Positions 23,064-32,217 of a stretch of DNA of 64,000 bases are shown in pieces. The notes beneath the pieces are model-generated. The model had not been told where the DNA came from, ran no database searches, and saw only the letters and a program-made list of their open reading frames with translations. The stretch comes from Pseudothermotoga elfii DSM 9442 = NBRC 107921 (GTDB lineage Bacteria > Thermotogota > Thermotogae > Thermotogales > DSM-5069), in assembly GCF_000504085.1 (NCBI RefSeq), contig NC_022792.1:434001-498000 (forward strand), written 5' to 3'. The position numbers were made by a program, and so were the translations under genes. Position 1 is the stretch's first letter; every line of letters starts with the position of its first letter.

Positions 23064-24833
23064 ATGAAAAACATGGTTGAACAGTATTTGCTGTTGAAAG
23101 ACTGGCGTATCAGAGAGAACAGTAACATGAATTATTCGTTGCAGGGGTTAAATAATCACATTGTTTCAGAGATTACATCCGATTACTGGCTTAAATGTGT
23201 ATATACAGAGAAAATCTCTAAAGCCCATATGGAGGGAGATTTTCACATACACGATTTGAATTTGCTTGCTCCATACTGTTGTGGTTGGGATTTGAGAGAT
23301 CTTTTAATCAACGGATTTGGTGGGGTTGATCAAAAGATAGAGAGTAAACCGCCAAGACATTTCAGGGTAGCTTTGATGCAAATTGTCAATTTTTTCTACA
23401 CGTTACAAGGCGAAGCTGCCGGTGCTCAAGCTTTTTCAAATGTTGATACGCTTCTGGCACCTTTTATTGCTTACGATAAACTTTCTTATCAAGAAGTAGT
23501 TCAATGTCTTCAGGAATTTGTTTTTAATCTAAATGTTCCAACCAGAGTGGGATTTCAAACTCCTTTTGTGAATATAACAATGGATGTAGTTGTTCCAAAG
23601 TATATGGCGAATGAACCTGTTATTGTAGGTGGTCAGTTTCAGGAAAAAACATATGGTGAATTTCAGCAGGAAATGGATATGTTTAACAAGGCGTTTTGTG
23701 AAGTGATGTTAGAAGGCGATGCGAGAGGAAGAGTCTTTAGTTTTCCAATACCTACATATAATGTGACCGGGAATTTCCCATGGGAAAGTGAAGTCGGGTA
23801 TATGATTTTACAGATGACTGCCAAGTACGGTATACCTTATTTTGCCAATTTTGTGAGCTCGGGTTTATCGCCCGAGGATGTTCGAAGCATGTGTTGCAGG
23901 CTCAGATTAGACAACCGAGAGCTTTACATAAGAGGTGGTGGGCTTTTTGGGGCAAATCCAATGACGGGATCCATAGGTGTGGTAACTATCAATATGCCGA
24001 GGATAGGGTATTTATCTGGAACCGAGGAAGAGTTTTTCAAAAGATTGAATTCTATTATGGAGATAGCAAAAGAAAGCCTTATTGTAAAAAGAAATGCAAT
24101 AGAGAAATTCACAGAATGGGGATTGTATCCGTATTCAAAGGTCTGTTTGAAAAAAGTTAAAAAATTTTTTGGACAGTATTGGCACAATCATTTCAGTACG
24201 ATAGGACTTGTTGGTATGCATGAAGCTTTGATGAACTTTTTCAAAAGAGGAATAGATACACCAGAAGGAAAAACTTTTGCAATGCGTGTTCTTGATTTCA
24301 TGCGGGAAAAGCTGTTGATTTTTCAACAAGAAACCGGTACCCTTTTCAACCTTGAAGCAACGCCAGCTGAAGGTGCATCTTACAGACTGGCAAAACTTGA
24401 TAAAGAGTGCTTCAAAAATATTTACACAAGTGGAGAAAATGAGCCTTATTACACAAATTCTACACAATTACCGGTGAATTACACAGATGATTTGTTTAGA
24501 GCTCTACAGATTCAAGAGGATTTACAGTTAAAATACACAGGCGGAACAGTTTTTCACATATTTCTGGGGGAAAAAGTTGAGGATGCATACAGCCTTGGAG
24601 CACTCATAAAGAGAATTTTTGAAAATTATAGACTTCCCTATATCACCGTAACCCCTACTTTCAGCATTTGCCGTGATCATGGTTATATCGGTGGAGAGGA
24701 ATATTCCTGTCCAGTTTGTGGTCAGCCGACAGAAGTGTGGAGCAGAGTGGTGGGATTCTACAGACCAGTTCAAAACTGGAATCCTGGAAAACGAGAAGAA
24801 TTCATTCATAGAGTAAATTATGTTGTTAATTGA
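23064..24833 (+). CDS. nrdD: Anaerobic (class III) ribonucleoside-triphosphate reductase
   Basis: Makes deoxyribonucleotides by glycyl-radical chemistry under anoxia. The 589-residue protein has HIHDLNLLAPYCCGWDL near the N-terminus, paired cysteines C277-C278 in MCCRLRLDNREL, and the C-terminal glycyl loop with G564 in SRVVGFYRP. The preceding zinc site is C536, H539, C549, C552 (CxxH and CPVC) instead of four cysteines. It starts directly with the catalytic domain, so no N-terminal ATP-cone is present and dATP feedback through a cone is not expected. The ATG has GGAGGTG upstream. NrdG follows. Confidence 0.95.
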   Translation: MKNMVEQYLLLKDWRIRENSNMNYSLQGLNNHIVSEITSDYWLKCVYTEKISKAHMEGDFHIHDLNLLAPYCCGWDLRDLLINGFGGVDQKIESKPPRHFRVALMQIVNFFYTLQGEAAGAQAFSNVDTLLAPFIAYDKLSYQEVVQCLQEFVFNLNVPTRVGFQTPFVNITMDVVVPKYMANEPVIVGGQFQEKTYGEFQQEMDMFNKAFCEVMLEGDARGRVFSFPIPTYNVTGNFPWESEVGYMILQMTAKYGIPYFANFVSSGLSPEDVRSMCCRLRLDNRELYIRGGGLFGANPMTGSIGVVTINMPRIGYLSGTEEEFFKRLNSIMEIAKESLIVKRNAIEKFTEWGLYPYSKVCLKKVKKFFGQYWHNHFSTIGLVGMHEALMNFFKRGIDTPEGKTFAMRVLDFMREKLLIFQQETGTLFNLEATPAEGASYRLAKLDKECFKNIYTSGENEPYYTNSTQLPVNYTDDLFRALQIQEDLQLKYTGGTVFHIFLGEKVEDAYSLGALIKRIFENYRLPYITVTPTFSICRDHGYIGGEEYSCPVCGQPTEVWSRVVGFYRPVQNWNPGKREEFIHRVNYVVN

Positions 24834-24846
24834 GGTTGATGGACCG

Positions 24847-25548
24847 ATGTATGTTCAAGGATGGGTCAAAGTAAGTTTGCTGGATTTTCCAAAAGAACCA
24901 TGTTCTACTGTTTTTATCTCTGGGTGCAATTTGAGATGCCCATACTGCCATAATTCGATGCTTGTTACAGTTGATAAGTCTCTGGCACAGACAAAATGGA
25001 AAGAAGTTCTCGCATGGATCAAAAGCAACAGAAAACTTATAAATGCAGTATGTATAACAGGAGGAGAACCAACTTTAAGAAAAGATCTTTATTTAATGAT
25101 CCATCTTGCAAAAGAATTAGGAATTAAGGTCAAACTTGATACAAATGGCACCCAACCATATATTATTGAAAAATTGATCAGGTTGAAAATGGTTGATTTC
25201 GTTGCAATGGATATAAAGGCTCCATTGAGCAAATATGAGAAGGTATGTCGTGCATCTGTAGATTTAGATTCCATAAAAAGATCAGTTGAGGTAATAAGAT
25301 CACTTGCCCCAGAATACGAATTTCGCACTACTTATCATCCGGACCTGCTCTCCGTAGAAGATTTTTTGGAGATTTGCAAATGGCTGGACAGGTCATCAAA
25401 TTACGTTCTTCAGCGATGTAGAATCGGAGAAAATCTTGATCCATCTTTCAACAAAATGCCAGTATATTACAGTTTAGGAGAAATTATCAAATTACTCAGA
25501 AATCATTTTCAGCATTTCACTTTGAGAGGATTTAGTGAGTTCGCGTAA
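24847..25548 (+). CDS. nrdG: Anaerobic ribonucleotide reductase activating protein (radical SAM)
   Basis: Generates the glycyl radical on NrdD from S-adenosylmethionine. The 233-residue protein has the CxxxCxxC cluster at C27, C31 and C34 in GCNLRCPYCHN, the SAM-binding CITGGEPTL, and KLDTNGTQP, the usual NrdG/PflA pattern. I choose the ATG at 24847 (MYVQGWVKVSLLDFP), where family homology starts, with GAGGT about 10 nt upstream. An ATG at 24820 would overlap nrdD by 14 bp. Longer than the short E. coli NrdG, as is common in Thermotogales and archaea. Confidence 0.92.
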   Translation: MYVQGWVKVSLLDFPKEPCSTVFISGCNLRCPYCHNSMLVTVDKSLAQTKWKEVLAWIKSNRKLINAVCITGGEPTLRKDLYLMIHLAKELGIKVKLDTNGTQPYIIEKLIRLKMVDFVAMDIKAPLSKYEKVCRASVDLDSIKRSVEVIRSLAPEYEFRTTYHPDLLSVEDFLEICKWLDRSSNYVLQRCRIGENLDPSFNKMPVYYSLGEIIKLLRNHFQHFTLRGFSEFA

Positions 25549-25598
25549 AAATCTTTCATGGCACGTTAGGGGTATAATAAATCTTGGGAGGATTTTAA

Positions 25599-26405
25599 TT
25601 GAGGGTGGGGTTTCTGATAGATGGTATTTGCCCGGGTGCCAATCAGTTTATATACACTCTGACGAATTATTTATCAAGTATTACTGGGTTTTTCCATGGA
25701 TGGCAAGGCTTGCTGGAAAACGATTTTAAGTTAATCAGGGCTAACGAAATTGAGCAATTTAAAAAAATGGGTGGTTCTATTGTAGGAAGCACACGTAAGA
25801 TATCGATTTTTCATGACTGGAAGTCGAAGGTTATCAGAGTTTTGACGATGAATCATATAGATTTGCTGGTTGTTCTGGGGTCTGAAAGATCGTTTCCCAT
25901 GGTTAGCGAGTTATTTTCGGCCGGAGTAAAAGTTGTTCTATTACCATGCGCAGATTCTGGTTCTTTTTGCTTCAGTTATAGACTTGGGTTAACTACCGTG
26001 ACTTTGCAATTGTTGAATTTTTTTCATTCTCTCAATAGATATGATCATGGATCTGTTACAGTTCTTTTTCCGAATGGAATTGAAGATGTAATTTCTAAGC
26101 TGAGGCTTGCCAGCGATTTTGTTTTGTTGCGTGAAAGTGATAAGGCCTCTGTAATTTTCAGAAATCACCCTGCAAGAGAAACCACTACGATAAAAATCCT
26201 TGGTATGCTCAGTTCAGCATTTCCAGAGAAAAAAGATATAGAGTTTGCAAGAGTTTGCGCCAAAAAATTGGTTGATTATCTTGATAATCCAAAAGGAGGA
26301 GTACTTGCAGAAATTGACGGGGGGTTGAAGATCATTCCACTTCAATATATTAAAAGCCAGACTGAATTTACTGTGGAGAGGATTCTTGAGAAAGTGAGGG
26401 AATAA
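25599..26405 (+). CDS. Divergent phosphofructokinase homologue lacking catalytic motifs
   Basis: The 268-residue protein follows the PfkA fold order: FLIDGICPGANQFIY for the N-terminal GGDAPG loop, GWQGLLENDF, GGSIVGSTRK, LLVVLGSERSF (94-99) for VIGG[DE]GS, and VVLLPCADSGSF (116-123) where PFK has IPKTIDND. The ATP-binding glycines, catalytic aspartates and the later MGR and HVQRGG motifs are missing, and it is about 50 residues short. It is therefore probably not a sugar-phosphate kinase. The TTG start has GGGAGG 7-8 nt upstream, and a possible TATAAT lies at 25573-25578. First gene of the 25-gene run. Confidence 0.75.
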   Translation: MRVGFLIDGICPGANQFIYTLTNYLSSITGFFHGWQGLLENDFKLIRANEIEQFKKMGGSIVGSTRKISIFHDWKSKVIRVLTMNHIDLLVVLGSERSFPMVSELFSAGVKVVLLPCADSGSFCFSYRLGLTTVTLQLLNFFHSLNRYDHGSVTVLFPNGIEDVISKLRLASDFVLLRESDKASVIFRNHPARETTTIKILGMLSSAFPEKKDIEFARVCAKKLVDYLDNPKGGVLAEIDGGLKIIPLQYIKSQTEFTVERILEKVRE

Positions 26406-26408
26406 ATC

Positions 26409-26933
26409 ATGAAAGGAGAACATCCTTATGTTAAGTGGGCCATAAAAAGCATTGAGGCATGGTTGAAAGAGAAAAGATTGCTGAACCCACTTAAAGATGG
26501 TGCACCTGTGGAATTACTGAAAAGAAGAGCGGGTGCTTTTGTTAGCCTCCATAAATTGGATGGATCTCTCAGAGGGTGTATAGGAACATATGTTCCGACG
26601 AAAGAAAATCTTGCTGAAGAAATAAGGGATAATGCAATTGCTGCAGCAGTGGAAGACCCTCGCTTTCTTCCAGTTAGCACAAATGAGCTTGATGATATTA
26701 AAGTAAGTGTTGATATATTGAGCGAACCTGAAGAGGTGTCGGGTATAAACCAGCTTGACCCTAAGAAATATGGCATTATAGTTGCGAAAGGATATCGAAG
26801 GGGTCTTCTGTTACCTGATTTAGAGGGTATCGATACTGTTCAGGAACAATTAAAAATAGCCAGGAGAAAAGCGGGCATTCTGGATAATGAGAAAATTACC
26901 GTATACCGTTTTACAGTTGAAAGGTTTTATTAA
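26409..26933 (+). CDS. AMMECR1-domain protein (AmmeMemoRadiSam system protein A)
   Basis: A 174-residue AMMECR1 protein with the invariant LRGCIGT motif in SLHKLDGSLRGCIGTYVP and the following NAIAAAVEDPRF segment, and a C-terminal RGLLLPDLEGIDTVQEQL. The family is found with Memo and a radical SAM enzyme in many prokaryotes. The biochemical role is not settled. It lies 3 bp after the PFK-like gene and 11 bp before the radical SAM partner. The Memo component (protein B) is not in this window. Confidence 0.92.
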   Translation: MKGEHPYVKWAIKSIEAWLKEKRLLNPLKDGAPVELLKRRAGAFVSLHKLDGSLRGCIGTYVPTKENLAEEIRDNAIAAAVEDPRFLPVSTNELDDIKVSVDILSEPEEVSGINQLDPKKYGIIVAKGYRRGLLLPDLEGIDTVQEQLKIARRKAGILDNEKITVYRFTVERFY

Positions 26934-26944
26934 GGAGTGATTTT

Positions 26945-27934
26945 GTGCAAAAAATGGCGTTGTATTTTACCAGTCTTTCAGATGAAAAAATTAAATGCGA
27001 ACTTTGTCCCCATCATTGTGTTTTGGAGAATGGGCAGATCGGTTTTTGCCTGACCAGAAAAAATAAGGAAGGGATTATGGAGTTATTGAATTATGGTCAG
27101 ATTACGTCTATTTGCGTGGATCCAATAGAGAAGAAACCGTTATTTCATTTCAATCCAGGGGAGAAGATCTTATCTGTTGGAACCTTTGGCTGCAACATGA
27201 AATGTGCTTTTTGTCAAAATTGGGAAATATCCCAGCAACCGGCTCCAACTCGCCGGGTTCTTCCTGAACAGCTTGTCTCCATAGCTCTGGAGAGAGGTTC
27301 TCGTGGTATAGCCTATACTTACAATGAGCCATTCGTTTGGTTTGAATTTGTTCTCGATACGTCCAGAATAGCTTCCAAGGAAGGTTTGTATAACGTTTTA
27401 GTCACGAATGGGCTTGTAGAAGAAGACCCTCTCAGCCTGTTGATACAATCAATTCATGCCATAAATGTTGATCTCAAAGCTTTCGAGGAAGAAACTTACC
27501 GTCGTCTCGGGGGAGATTTGAACACTGTTAAGAGGACCATAAAAGTAGCTGTTGAGGCAGGTATACATGTTGAGATAACTACACTGATTGTACCAGGAAT
27601 CAGTGACGACATGGAACATCTTGAGGAAGAATTCAAATGGCTGGCAAGTTTAGATAAATCTTTGCCTCTTCATTTATCTCGTTATTTTCCAAACTATAGA
27701 ATGAGCAATCCTGCCACATCAAATTCAAAACTTATTGAGGCCTATAACCTGGCGCGACAGTATCTGGATTATGTTTATATAGGAAATCTTTGGGATTCAA
27801 ATTACGAAAGCACGGTTTGCCCTTCGTGTGGGACCCTCGTAGTCAGGCGTGATAGGTATGAGATTCAAAACGAAGGTTTAGATCGAGAAGGCAGGTGCAA
27901 AAAATGCGGAAAAAAGATCGCGAAAGTTTTTTAA
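26945..27934 (+). CDS. amrS: AmmeMemoRadiSam system radical SAM enzyme (AmrS)
   Basis: A 329-residue radical SAM protein similar to pyruvate-formate-lyase activases. An N-terminal cysteine group (CELCPHHC, GFCLTRKN) comes before the radical cluster CNMKCAFCQNWEIS (CxxxCxxC), then ITTLIVPGISDD and LHLSRYFPNY. The C-terminus has a rubredoxin-like finger (CPSCG and CKKCG). The GTG start follows AAGGAGTG. The substrate is unknown. The conserved pairing with AMMECR1 is the main context. Confidence 0.92.
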   Translation: MQKMALYFTSLSDEKIKCELCPHHCVLENGQIGFCLTRKNKEGIMELLNYGQITSICVDPIEKKPLFHFNPGEKILSVGTFGCNMKCAFCQNWEISQQPAPTRRVLPEQLVSIALERGSRGIAYTYNEPFVWFEFVLDTSRIASKEGLYNVLVTNGLVEEDPLSLLIQSIHAINVDLKAFEEETYRRLGGDLNTVKRTIKVAVEAGIHVEITTLIVPGISDDMEHLEEEFKWLASLDKSLPLHLSRYFPNYRMSNPATSNSKLIEAYNLARQYLDYVYIGNLWDSNYESTVCPSCGTLVVRRDRYEIQNEGLDREGRCKKCGKKIAKVF

Positions 27935-28956
27935 GAACAAATCGTTTGTTGTTTATTCTTCTTTTCGTTGGTCTGGCGATAATCTTTTCCTTAACTGCCG
28001 CAGTCTTTGTCAGATCACAGCACAACTATTATGAGTACGATGGCTTTACGCTTGGAACCTACTGCAGAATCGTTGTTTCGTCGAAAAAAGGCTCAAAATC
28101 CCTTGCGGAAATCATGTTTGATGAGATGGACAGAATTTATAAAAAATACAACCTGAATGATGAAAATAGTTTCTTGAGTAAAATAAACACTTCCAAAGAT
28201 TGGGTTGACCTTGACGAGGAAACATTTGTTCTTCTTGATGCTGCTGTCAAATTTTCGGAAATAACCAGTGGGGCGTTTGACCCTGCTCTTGGAAATCTAA
28301 TAGAGCTCTGGGGATTCAACAAAATAGCTGAACATTCACCAGAGACTGTACCATCAAAATTTGATATAGCTGAAACATTGAAAAAATCAGGGGTAAGAAA
28401 CGTAGAATTAGACCGGAACACAAGGAGAATAAGGTTGCTGAATGGTGTCAAGCTTGATCTTGGAGGGATAGCTAAGGGTTATGCCCTTGATAGGGCATAT
28501 CAGATAGCGAAAGAAATTGATCCGGAGTGTACGGGTTTTGTTGAAGCCGGGGGCGATATTAGAATACTTGGGCCAAAATTTGGATCTCGACCATGGGTTG
28601 TTGGTGTGAAAGATCCGCGGAAAGCAGACTCGGTGGTAACGTACCTTTATTTGACAGAAGGTGCTGTTGCCACTTCTGGCGATTACGAGAGATACTTTAT
28701 TTTGGACAACGTGAGGTATCATCATATTCTTTCACCTGAAACAGGTTATCCTGCACAGGGTGCTCAATCAGCAACCGTTGTTGCAAAAGACGCGGTAACA
28801 GCTGATGCACTTTCAACGGCTGCTTTTGTCATGGCGAAAGACTGGGAGTACGTAGTCCTGGAATATCCAAAATTTGGAGGAAGTGTTTTGATAATAACAG
28901 AGGATGGATCTGTGTGCAGATCACCTTCAATGAGAGTATATGAGCAGGCGAAATAA
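27904..28956 (+). CDS. apbE: FAD:protein FMN transferase (ApbE)
   Basis: Attaches FMN covalently to Ser/Thr of extracytoplasmic redox proteins. The 350-residue protein has an N-terminal membrane helix (about residues 12-35), then the ApbE fold: GFTLGTYCRIV, KLDLGGIAKGYALD, FVEAGGDIRILG, GAVATSGDYERYF, HHILSPETGYPA and the metal-site region DAVTADALSTAAFVM. The ATG at 27904 begins just before the anchor and lies inside the amrS end. Together with the next two genes it forms a recognised ApbE/NusG-II/Gx group. The target flavoprotein is not in this window. Confidence 0.93.
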   Translation: MRKKDRESFLRTNRLLFILLFVGLAIIFSLTAAVFVRSQHNYYEYDGFTLGTYCRIVVSSKKGSKSLAEIMFDEMDRIYKKYNLNDENSFLSKINTSKDWVDLDEETFVLLDAAVKFSEITSGAFDPALGNLIELWGFNKIAEHSPETVPSKFDIAETLKKSGVRNVELDRNTRRIRLLNGVKLDLGGIAKGYALDRAYQIAKEIDPECTGFVEAGGDIRILGPKFGSRPWVVGVKDPRKADSVVTYLYLTEGAVATSGDYERYFILDNVRYHHILSPETGYPAQGAQSATVVAKDAVTADALSTAAFVMAKDWEYVVLEYPKFGGSVLIITEDGSVCRSPSMRVYEQAK

Positions 28957-29305
28957 GTTTTTCAGAAAAGCAGATTTTCTTGTAATATTGGTAATTTTGC
29001 TGATAATTGTTATCAGTTTTTTTGTTAAGGATAAAAATTCCTCGCAAGTAGAGGTATGGAAAAATGGAGAGATCGCGATGGTAATCAAACAGGCAGGGGA
29101 ATACGAGCTCAGAGAAGGTGATAATCATTTGATGAACATATATTTTGACGGGAAGACGGTCTTTGTCAAGAATAGTTCATGCTCATTGAAAATTTGTGAA
29201 AAAACTGGAAAAGTTGGACCTGGTGGGGTTATCATATGTGTTCCGAACAGGGTTCTAATAAAGTTCAGTGGTAAAATGCCAAAGGCGGATGTGATAACTT
29301 GGTGA
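28940..29305 (+). CDS. NusG domain II-containing membrane-anchored protein
   Basis: A 121-residue protein with one N-terminal helix (about residues 13-29) and a small extracytoplasmic domain containing SSCSLKICEKTGKVGPGGVIICVPNRV, the C...C.KTG....G..I.C.PNR pattern typical of the family. Despite the name it is not a transcription factor. Such proteins commonly sit next to Gx transporters and ApbE. It overlaps apbE by 17 bp and the Gx gene by 7 bp. Role unknown, probably in extracytoplasmic flavin or quinone redox. Confidence 0.85.
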   Translation: MSRRNKFFRKADFLVILVILLIIVISFFVKDKNSSQVEVWKNGEIAMVIKQAGEYELREGDNHLMNIYFDGKTVFVKNSSCSLKICEKTGKVGPGGVIICVPNRVLIKFSGKMPKADVITW

Positions 29306-29877
29306 GAGCGAAGAGAATAGCCTTAACAGCGTTAATGATCAGCCTGGGTGTGGTAACGTATGTTCTGGAAAGTGTAGTACCTTTTCCCATTCCAAATGGA
29401 AAATGGGGATTCTCAAATTTTGTTGTGTTGCTTTCTATTTTTGCTTTTGGGGGAGTTGAAGGAATAAAAGTTGCGATCGGGAAAAGTTTGATCGGGTCTA
29501 TTTTGACCGGCCACTTTATGGATGTGGCTTTTTTTATGAGTGTTGCTGGGTCTTCGTCTGCAGCTCTGATTGAAACTGTCTTATCCAGGGTTGGGTTCTT
29601 TGGTCTATTTGGTGTAAGTTTGTGCGGAAGTATTGCAAATAATATTGCTCAAATATTTGTTGGCTCTGTTTTTTTGCAAAGCAAATCTTTCTTTATAATA
29701 CTACCTTATATGCTTTTTCTTGGCATACCAGGTGCCCTTGCAAACGCATATATTGTTAAGAGGGTGTTGCCGTATGTTGAAAGAATTCAGGTTAGTACTG
29801 GCTTCGACTTCACCACGAAGGAAAATGCTGCTCAAGAAACTGTTCCGCAGATTCGAAATAATCGCTCCGGAAATTGA
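29299..29877 (+). CDS. Gx transporter family membrane protein (ECF S-component-like)
   Basis: A 192-residue protein with five or six membrane helices. Its N-terminal AKRIALTALMISLGVVTYVLESVVP and GFSNFVVLLSIFAFG resemble Gx family members, often annotated heptaprenyl-diphosphate synthase component I or compared with ECF substrate-binding components. The substrate is unknown. The last 35 codons overlap the start of maf by 104 bp. The hydrophilic tail from about residue 160 looks like read-through rather than conserved protein. Confidence 0.85.
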   Translation: MVRAKRIALTALMISLGVVTYVLESVVPFPIPNGKWGFSNFVVLLSIFAFGGVEGIKVAIGKSLIGSILTGHFMDVAFFMSVAGSSSAALIETVLSRVGFFGLFGVSLCGSIANNIAQIFVGSVFLQSKSFFIILPYMLFLGIPGALANAYIVKRVLPYVERIQVSTGFDFTTKENAAQETVPQIRNNRSGN

Positions 29878-30376: not shown

Positions 30377-31016
30377 AGGCCTTTCAAAAGAAGAACTCAT
30401 TGCCATTTTATTGCGTACAGGAACCCGTGGAAAAGGTGTATTAGAGCTTGCTAATGAATTGCTACACAGCTTTAATTCGTCTCTTAAGATGCTTGCAAAT
30501 GCAGAAATAGAGGAAATAGCTTCAGTAGATGGGGTTGGTATAGCAAAGGCTGCGTCGATAAAAGCTGCTCTTGAACTTGGAAAAAGACTTTATCGTGAAT
30601 TATCAGATAACCGTATTTTGTTAGACAAGCCGGAATCAGTATACGAATATTGCCATGAGATGAGGTTTTTTGAAAAAGAAGTGCTGAGAGTTATTCTTCT
30701 GGACAGTAAGTTGTTCTCGGTATTTCACAAAGACATTACTCAAGGTACGAACAATCAAACGATATTTCATCCAAGAGAAATATTTAGAATCGCTATCAGA
30801 TCCAATGCAACTTCAATTATAGTTGTTCACAACCATCCTTCCGGAGATCCATCACCCAGTGCCGAAGACAAAAAAGCAACAGAGATGTTAATTTCTGCAG
30901 GTGATATACTCGGAATAGAGATTATTGATCATTTGATAGTTGGCAGAGAAAGGTACTATAGTTTTCGAGAAAACAGATTGCTGGGGGATAGAAAAGGTGG
31001 AAGAAGAAAAAGATGA
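30339..31016 (+). CDS. radC: RadC/JAB-domain DNA-repair-associated protein
   Basis: A 225-residue RadC protein with an N-terminal RadC region (GLSKEELIAILLRTGTRGKGV), a helix-hairpin-helix-like ASVDGVGIAKAASIKAAL, and the JAB metalloprotease motif VVHNHPSGDPSPSAED. The TTG start follows GGTGGTGG and overlaps maf by 38 bp. The function of RadC in repair is disputed. The metal ligands here are intact. Confidence 0.93.
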   Translation: MKPRERMLKIGSEGLSKEELIAILLRTGTRGKGVLELANELLHSFNSSLKMLANAEIEEIASVDGVGIAKAASIKAALELGKRLYRELSDNRILLDKPESVYEYCHEMRFFEKEVLRVILLDSKLFSVFHKDITQGTNNQTIFHPREIFRIAIRSNATSIIVVHNHPSGDPSPSAEDKKATEMLISAGDILGIEIIDHLIVGRERYYSFRENRLLGDRKGGRRKR

Positions 31017-32217
31017 AAGAATTTTGAATCTGTTACGACTCAAAATGGAACTTGAAAAAGATCTTCAAAAGCGCGGTGTAAAACAAACCGATCACCCTAA
31101 GAGATCTTTCGTGCCTCCAAAAGTGAAGGTGTCAATCGAGGAAGATCTGAATGTGCCGGTTAATGAGATATGGTCGTTGTATGATTTGAATCGATTTACT
31201 TATGGTGAAGACGAGTTATTGATCGAAAAATCTGTCCAGAAAAGGATAATATCTGTAGGAGACAAAAACCAGCGTTTGATTCTGGAAAAGATTGTTCACC
31301 TTCTCAAGGGAGATTATGACGGCTGTGTTGGCTTGAGTAAAAAGAGCGATCAGTATCTTGATAGCATTGATCTAATTGCAGATCTTTACAAAAACCAAAC
31401 TCCACCTGTTGAAAAAATGGTTTCCCTCCTCAGAAATTATTCATCTTCGCCTGTAGCTCTTCTATCTGCTGGGGAAGTGCTTCTCTCCATGGGGCGATTT
31501 CGAGAGGTTGCCAAACTTTTCAAAATAGCTTATGAAACCTCTAAGGATCCATACATACTACTTTTAACAAGTGCATATGATTCAGCTCAAATAGACGGGG
31601 CACTTTTTGCTAACTGTGCATCGAAAGGAAATTATAAACTTCTGGTATTGCTGATTTCGGCACTTACCGAAGATGAAAGCAAAGCAGATAAAGTAATAGA
31701 TGTAATCAAAAAAAAGCAATATACGTGTGTAAGATACATAGTTTCAAGAGCAAATCTCTCCATAGACGAGCTTTTCCCATTTTGCCCAAGATCACTTATT
31801 TTAAACAATGCGATTCAATTTATGGAAACGGGGAGATTTGATGAAGATCTCATTTCTACTCTTTCAAAACATGACCCACAGGCTTATTTACTTTTGCTTA
31901 GCAATGCTTTAAGGCGCGGTGATCTCGTAATGGCAAGAGAAATTCTTTCTATGATTATAAATTCAGCAGAAGGTGTATCTGTAACACCTGTCAATAAATC
32001 GAAAGCCCCCGTTTGCCTACAAAGTGTTGTAAGCATGCGAAAACCGATGGGAAAGTCAATTTTAATTGATGATCCTGATGAAGGTCTAACAATTATTCAA
32101 AAATCCATAGAGCAATTCGGGGATGTTTACGTTACCTTTAAAGACATTGAGTTTTTGAGGTTGTATTATGGTGAGAGATTTTGCAAAAATAATTATCTTC
32201 AGGAGGGTTCAAAATGA
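30997..32217 (+). CDS. Helical-repeat protein of unknown function (406 residues)
   Basis: Not recognised. The first 30 residues are charged and coiled-coil-like (LNLLRLKMELEKDLQKR), then a basic-proline linker, then mostly amphipathic helices. A TPR-like pair is visible near ALLSAGEVLLSMGRFREVAKLFKIAYE. No signal peptide, membrane helix or catalytic motif. The GTG at 30997 is preferred (20 bp overlap with radC, GGGGGAT upstream) over an open frame back to 30940. It lies in the long collinear run next to an HD-domain gene, and nothing suggests a substrate. Confidence 0.75.
   Translation: MEEEKDERILNLLRLKMELEKDLQKRGVKQTDHPKRSFVPPKVKVSIEEDLNVPVNEIWSLYDLNRFTYGEDELLIEKSVQKRIISVGDKNQRLILEKIVHLLKGDYDGCVGLSKKSDQYLDSIDLIADLYKNQTPPVEKMVSLLRNYSSSPVALLSAGEVLLSMGRFREVAKLFKIAYETSKDPYILLLTSAYDSAQIDGALFANCASKGNYKLLVLLISALTEDESKADKVIDVIKKKQYTCVRYIVSRANLSIDELFPFCPRSLILNNAIQFMETGRFDEDLISTLSKHDPQAYLLLLSNALRRGDLVMAREILSMIINSAEGVSVTPVNKSKAPVCLQSVVSMRKPMGKSILIDDPDEGLTIIQKSIEQFGDVYVTFKDIEFLRLYYGERFCKNNYLQEGSK

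Follow-up and report, generated by a model that had tools for sequence, protein, structure and literature searches.

Why would a genome keep a phosphofructokinase (PFK)-like gene that appears to have lost most of its active site, and keep it directly in front of AMMECR1 and AmrS? The question is raised by a locus in a 64,000-nucleotide stretch of the Pseudothermotoga elfii genome (hereafter, the window), which is part of one 2,169,860-bp contig. The gene and its downstream neighbors are arranged as follows.

25587..25592, + strand: Shine-Dalgarno-like GGGAGG, about 7 nt before the TTG start, as read from the sequence
25599..26405, + strand: pseudo-PFK gene, a degenerate AMMECR1-linked phosphofructokinase (268 aa, TTG start, stop at 26405)
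26409..26933, + strand: AMMECR1 family protein (AmmeMemoRadiSam system protein A; NCBIfam TIGR04335)
26945..27934, + strand: AmrS (AmmeMemoRadiSam radical SAM enzyme; NCBIfam TIGR04337)

The matches to TIGR04335 and TIGR04337 directly downstream bear out the adjacency to AMMECR1 and AmrS described in the earlier note. The AMMECR1 start lies 3 nt past the pseudo-PFK stop codon, and the GAGG preceding its ATG falls within the final pseudo-PFK codons; across the window's family, 0-8 nt separate the stop from the start, or the two frames overlap by 43 nt. The gene had also been placed at the head of a 25-gene run. The count is right, with 25 genes from this ORF through tsf (45618), but nrdD (23064) and nrdG (24820-25548) precede it on the same strand, the latter 50 nt away, and it is therefore not the head of the run. 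In related genera, fabK-fabD lies directly upstream of the pseudo-PFK instead of nrdD-nrdG. A sigma-70 scan of the 50-nt gap returned no site above thresholds and was not informative. Memo (PF01875) is encoded elsewhere in the P. elfii genome, outside the AMMECR1-AmrS locus. Genes for AMMECR1, AmrS, ApbE, and NusG-II-like and Gx-transporter-like proteins (window 26409-29877) cluster together in many of the genomes read, including those where the PFK sits elsewhere, and ApbE adjoining AmrS may hint at a flavin link. A 425-aa ORF occupies 30940-32217 inside the gene run.

At the level of sequence, the resemblance of the ORF to PFK is far above chance. Pfam PF00365 (PFK) matched residues 9-118, in the N-half only, with an E value of 1.1e-14 and 55 bits (cut-off 30.9), and this significant match places the N-half in the PFK-A superfamily by homology. 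NCBIfam PFK_mixed matched at 1.5e-12, and PFKs in the PDB were reached at 3e-4 with the single sequence and 3e-12 with the genus profile. Alignment to intact relatives paired GWQGL with GWKGL, GGSIVGSTR with GGTILGTSR, LVVLGSERSF with IAIGGDDTL, and CADSGSF with KTIDNDV, upholding the proposed order of PFK strands and loops. The protein had been called about 50 residues short, which agrees with its being 51 aa below PfkA of the same genome (319 aa); relative to its true orthologues (340 aa), the deficit is 72 aa. The likeness extends over residues 1 to about 160, the remainder not being recognizably PFK by sequence, and the protein can be divided accordingly.

25599..26078, + strand: N-terminal PFK domain (aa 1-160), the sole part alignable to PFK by sequence profile (hhalign E 1.1e-17; best Foldseek matches are PFKs in both models)
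26079..26402, + strand: C-terminal part (aa 161-268), common to the pseudo-PFKs; sequence comparison does not detect it as PFK, and its model has low confidence

HMMER and hhalign comparisons of the C-half with PFK, run with shuffled controls, gave no match better than the shuffles. The predicted structure shows the same division. An AlphaFold model from an alignment of pseudo and intact PFKs reached pLDDT 57-89 (ten-residue blocks) over residues 1-118 and stayed below 50 in the rest, and a control model from the pseudo copies alone reproduced the order of N-half elements with lower confidence. Foldseek placed bacterial PFKs first for both models (E 2.5e-8 and 4.6e-8); alignments confined to the N-half spanned roughly 125 columns at about 2.4-3.4 A. 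The predicted PFK fold is thus supported for the N-half, and the models of the C-half are not confident. The best Foldseek matches were bacterial ATP-PFKs (PfkA; E. coli 1PFK, G. stearothermophilus 3PFK), with which the protein shares the N-terminal Rossmann-like domain; however, these are not its closest relatives, and their F6P-site motifs are all missing from it.

Three relics of the active site can be located.

25623..25643, + strand: G-I-C-P-G-A-N loop (aa 9-15), derived from GGDCPGLN; D12 is gone, and 10/11 copies retain CPG
25878..25895, + strand: GSERSF (aa 94-99), derived from GGDDTL; 10/11 copies retain an acid at the D103 site, and D104 is gone
25944..25961, + strand: PCADSG (aa 116-121), derived from PKTIDND; K124 and D129 are gone, and 9/11 copies retain an acid at the D127 site

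D12, D104, K124, and D129 are gone from the pseudo-PFKs, together with the MGR and RGG motifs of the F6P site, which are missing from every pseudo copy scored. In place of the phosphate-donor motif GGD[GD], the window protein carries GSER and most relatives GN[DE]; in place of the catalytic P[GK]TIDxD, it carries PCADSG, in which only the D127-site acid is left, an assignment that we infer and that hinges on a one-residue alignment gap. The reported loss of TIDND (replaced by CADSGSF), GGD, MGR, and RGG is accurate for the motif strings, but acids persist at the D103 and D127 positions. Among the family's 11 copies, the D103-site acid is E in some genera and D in another. The D127-site acid is missing in two copies (G004 and G006), and G006 also lacks the D103-site acid and the CPG loop. 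The former active-site loops are the most conserved region: only 4/149 circular shifts of the loop mask equaled the contrast for all copies and 1/149 for the genus. The most conserved columns include C11-P12-G13, G94, P116, and G130, with A118, D119, and T133, all in former phosphate-cleft loops. Judged by these residues, the protein very probably has no F6P kinase activity.

The origin of the protein was traced through the same gene slot in 103 Thermotogota genomes, of which 101 contain AMMECR1 and all 103 contain PFKs. A degenerate PFK (242-298 aa) occurs in 11/11 genomes of the window's family; it lies directly upstream of AMMECR1-AmrS in 10/11, that is, in all 10 genomes having AMMECR1 on that contig, and the eleventh copy is at a contig end. 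Two genera have copies of about 263-298 aa; those of the other two genera measure 242-250 aa and lack some 20-45 N-half residues. By coordinates, a PFK occupies this slot in 40 genomes from six other Thermotogota families, and every copy read there is 340 aa long with GGDDT, PKTIDND, MGR, and RGGTP intact (in L011 and L067, the pattern picked an earlier GNEES string, and the motif is GGDDT in the alignment). GGDD and PKTIDxD are described as signatures of pyrophosphate (PPi)-dependent PFKs, the second not being decisive alone (PMC12203962). Family f9 keeps an intact copy apart from AMMECR1, and Thermotoga and a Fervidobacterium/Thermosipho-like family (f3) have AMMECR1 with no PFK in the slot. 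Orthologues with conserved AMMECR1/AmrS neighbors are thus present in every family genome that has AMMECR1 on that contig, and intact PFKs hold the slot across the class; therefore, the PFK-AMMECR1 neighbor link predates the decay. The intact PPi-type PFK abuts or overlaps AMMECR1-AmrS in six Thermotogota families (L005-L014, L016, L017, L020, L022, L024, L093-L108, and others). Among 80 loci outside Thermotogota, no PFK was found upstream of AMMECR1, and one other PFK-like match (L179) lay downstream.

Sequence searches point to the same ancestor. In single-protein searches, the linked PFKs scored E 1e-7 to 1e-13, the next PFK encoded by the P. elfii genome scored 2e-6, and the hhalign match listed above for residues 1-160 was between the genus pseudo-PFK profile and the linked PFK profile. 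A profile of the short form, comprising the most eroded copies, matched the linked PFKs at E 2e-6 and the window's genus at E 1.9e-13 over 194 columns, C-half included. Searched against the 103 genomes, it found outside its own family only AMMECR1-linked PFKs and none of the other PFK paralogues, which argues for descent from the pyrophosphate-type PFK. In the tree of all PFKs, long branches draw the pseudo clade away; a reduced tree placed pseudo and linked PFKs on one side at 92/82. Given these long branches, the trees agree with this origin, though weakly. Taken by slot and closest paralogue, the pseudo-PFK is a direct orthologue of the AMMECR1-linked short PPi-type PFK of Thermotogota (TIGR02483 PFK_mixed; GGDDT, PKTIDND), from which it almost certainly descends. 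The latter has 340 aa and intact motifs, whereas the window protein has 268 aa and most motifs lost.

Beyond the pseudo-PFK, the P. elfii genome encodes PfkA, another PFK next to hppA, and an intact Thermotogales PPi-PFK (NF041103). Both the window's family and Thermotoga carry NF041103, which was not found in genomes with an intact linked PFK, except in a metagenome bin (G035; contigs C65, C204, C121) that holds two AMMECR1 genes, the intact linked PFK, and NF041103, and that is probably mixed. This distribution fits a plausible course in which other PFKs replaced the catalysis and decay or loss followed, the order of events being our inference. A second odd PFK lies outside the window at L039:3773-4783 (-) (G000:C1 about 2,055,770-2,056,780), with further copies in L038, L199, L200, L201, L027, and L197. 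It keeps TIDND and QRGG, GGR (or SGH) replaces GGD in every copy seen across three families, and it adjoins the membrane pyrophosphatase gene hppA where context was read. PfkA of these bacteria carries GGEGS in place of GGDGS, as at L089:3596-4558 and L191:644-1600.

The gene is not dead DNA, as its purifying selection indicates. Pseudo-PFK dN/dS was 0.36 (0.23-0.55), 0.16 (0.10-0.23), 0.15 (0.12-0.22), and 0.22 (0.15-0.31) in four pairs, with synonymous sites near saturation in the pairs giving 0.15 and 0.22; all upper bounds (0.22-0.55) were below 1, and omitting the AMMECR1-overlapping part left the result unchanged (0.14-0.35). None of the 11 copies contains a stop or frameshift, despite divergence down to about 20% identity. 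An open frame combined with dN/dS below 1 marks a pseudoenzyme under selection, and it is highly likely that the gene is selected as a protein, although the constraint is 3 to 12 times looser than on the neighboring genes (dN/dS 0.03-0.07). Identity to other copies of the genus is 29-33%, compared with 71-77% for AMMECR1/AmrS. The idea of a PFK-derived protein kept without the F6P-kinase residues was thus supported in 11/11 family genomes. A chance ORF or recent pseudogene was ruled out by dN/dS and conservation.

Family-wide retention in the ancestral slot despite the lost active site suggests a non-enzymatic job. The explanation we favor, tentatively and at somewhat under an even chance, is a non-catalytic phosphate-ligand-binding or adaptor protein, possibly for AMMECR1/AmrS. 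Sequence and synteny show that the gene comes from a pyrophosphate-type PFK, which in much of Thermotogota is paired with AMMECR1, AmrS coming next. They also show that the Pseudothermotoga family's ancestor lost K124, MGR, RGG, and the recognizable sugar-phosphate half, while the slot and purifying selection were kept. Catalysis may have been taken over by PfkA and the Thermotogales PPi-PFK. The remaining N-terminal domain would still fold and could bind a phosphate-type ligand (e.g., Mg-PPi or a nucleotide) via the D103- and D127-site acids. It would serve as a sensor or adaptor without catalysis, with AMMECR1/AmrS, translated directly after it, as the likeliest partner. That a ligand is still bound in the old cleft is nearly an even call; binding is favored by the two acids retained in the old phosphate cleft and by conservation being highest there. 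Action on AMMECR1/AmrS is a more tentative possibility based on gene order, suggested by the position, near-overlapping frames, and retention of the gene. An unlikely special case would be that the former PPi site senses Mg-pyrophosphate, or else a nucleotide, and that the protein thereby controls the AMMECR1/AmrS radical-SAM pathway.

A tight, essential role is disfavored because the gene is under looser constraint than its neighbors, has been cut to about 242 aa in one genus, and is missing from the slot in Thermotoga as well as in the Fervidobacterium/Thermosipho-like family. Rapid divergence with repeated loss of length is what a protein of little importance would show, and a slowly vanishing relic is a serious alternative, if a rather unlikely one: another PFK took over, selection relaxed, and a minor or vanishing role is heading toward the loss seen in those two groups. 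The elevated dN/dS, the fall in length from 340 to 298, 268, and 242 aa, the empty slot in two related groups, and the redundant PFKs are all as such erosion would leave them; the uninterrupted frames at about 20% identity, dN/dS well below 1, charge preserved at two cleft sites through D/E exchange, and the C-terminal block that the short-form genus conserves are not. The linkage itself may be operon inertia, as the active PFK of family f9 lies apart from AMMECR1 and Thermotoga has no linked copy. The close spacing and the GAGG within the last codons could instead mean that the ORF is kept mainly for the AMMECR1 ribosome site at its 3' end and for translational coupling, which we consider improbable: dN/dS remains 0.14-0.35 outside the overlap, conservation in the window's genus peaks in the former cleft rather than at the 3' end, and active PFKs show equally close spacing.

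The conserved cleft loops and the acids retained at the D103 and D127 sites in most copies could also serve as metal and base in another phosphotransfer or hydrolysis, making the protein a real enzyme with a new substrate. Against this stand the loss of D12, K124, D129, MGR, and RGG, the C-half, which would be expected to hold the second substrate and is not PFK-like by sequence, and the absence of the D127-site acid in G004 and G006, leaving only a slim chance for such an enzyme. Assembly with the organism's remaining PFKs as a regulatory subunit, like plant PFP-alpha or the regulatory halves of yeast and mammalian PFK, would suit PFK ancestry and has eukaryotic precedent; yet the gene was never seen adjoining those PFK genes and its C-half, the carrier of much of the PFK tetramer interface, is unrecognizable, which makes this reading very improbable.

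Known systems offer partial parallels to the favored non-catalytic role. In yeast and mammalian PFK, the C-terminal half is no longer catalytic and has turned into an effector site (PMC12203962), and the pseudo-domain (C-domain) of Toxoplasma PFK2 is inactive but needed (PMC8836295). These lost catalysis and kept the fold, as the window protein appears to have done, and their regulatory or essential roles make a non-catalytic role reasonable; however, they are fused to active PFK, whereas the window protein is free-standing, bacterial, and beside AMMECR1. Our literature search found no paper on this gene or on any free-standing bacterial pseudo-PFK. In the AmmeMemoRadiSam system (TIGR04335, TIGR04337, PF01875), AMMECR1 and AmrS adjoin the pseudo-PFK and Memo lies elsewhere, but its defined parts include no PFK-derived member, and the functional link is suggested by position. 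For human MEMO1, one article (PMC11081632) still calls the primary molecular function unknown.

AMMECR1, AmrS, and Memo are widespread, and a whole bacterial class pairs a pyrophosphate-type PFK with AMMECR1-AmrS. The finding is more informative than first stated because the change from enzyme to pseudoenzyme can be traced, as a graded series, within one gene slot. This small thermophile protein offers a system for testing the PFK-AMMECR1 link. If the Mg-PPi sensor reading were true, a widespread orphan AMMECR1/AmrS pathway would be tied to the energy or pyrophosphate state of the cell. In one family, the PFK has apparently been deprived of catalysis yet kept in place, providing a natural split between the catalytic and non-catalytic roles of the gene next to AMMECR1.
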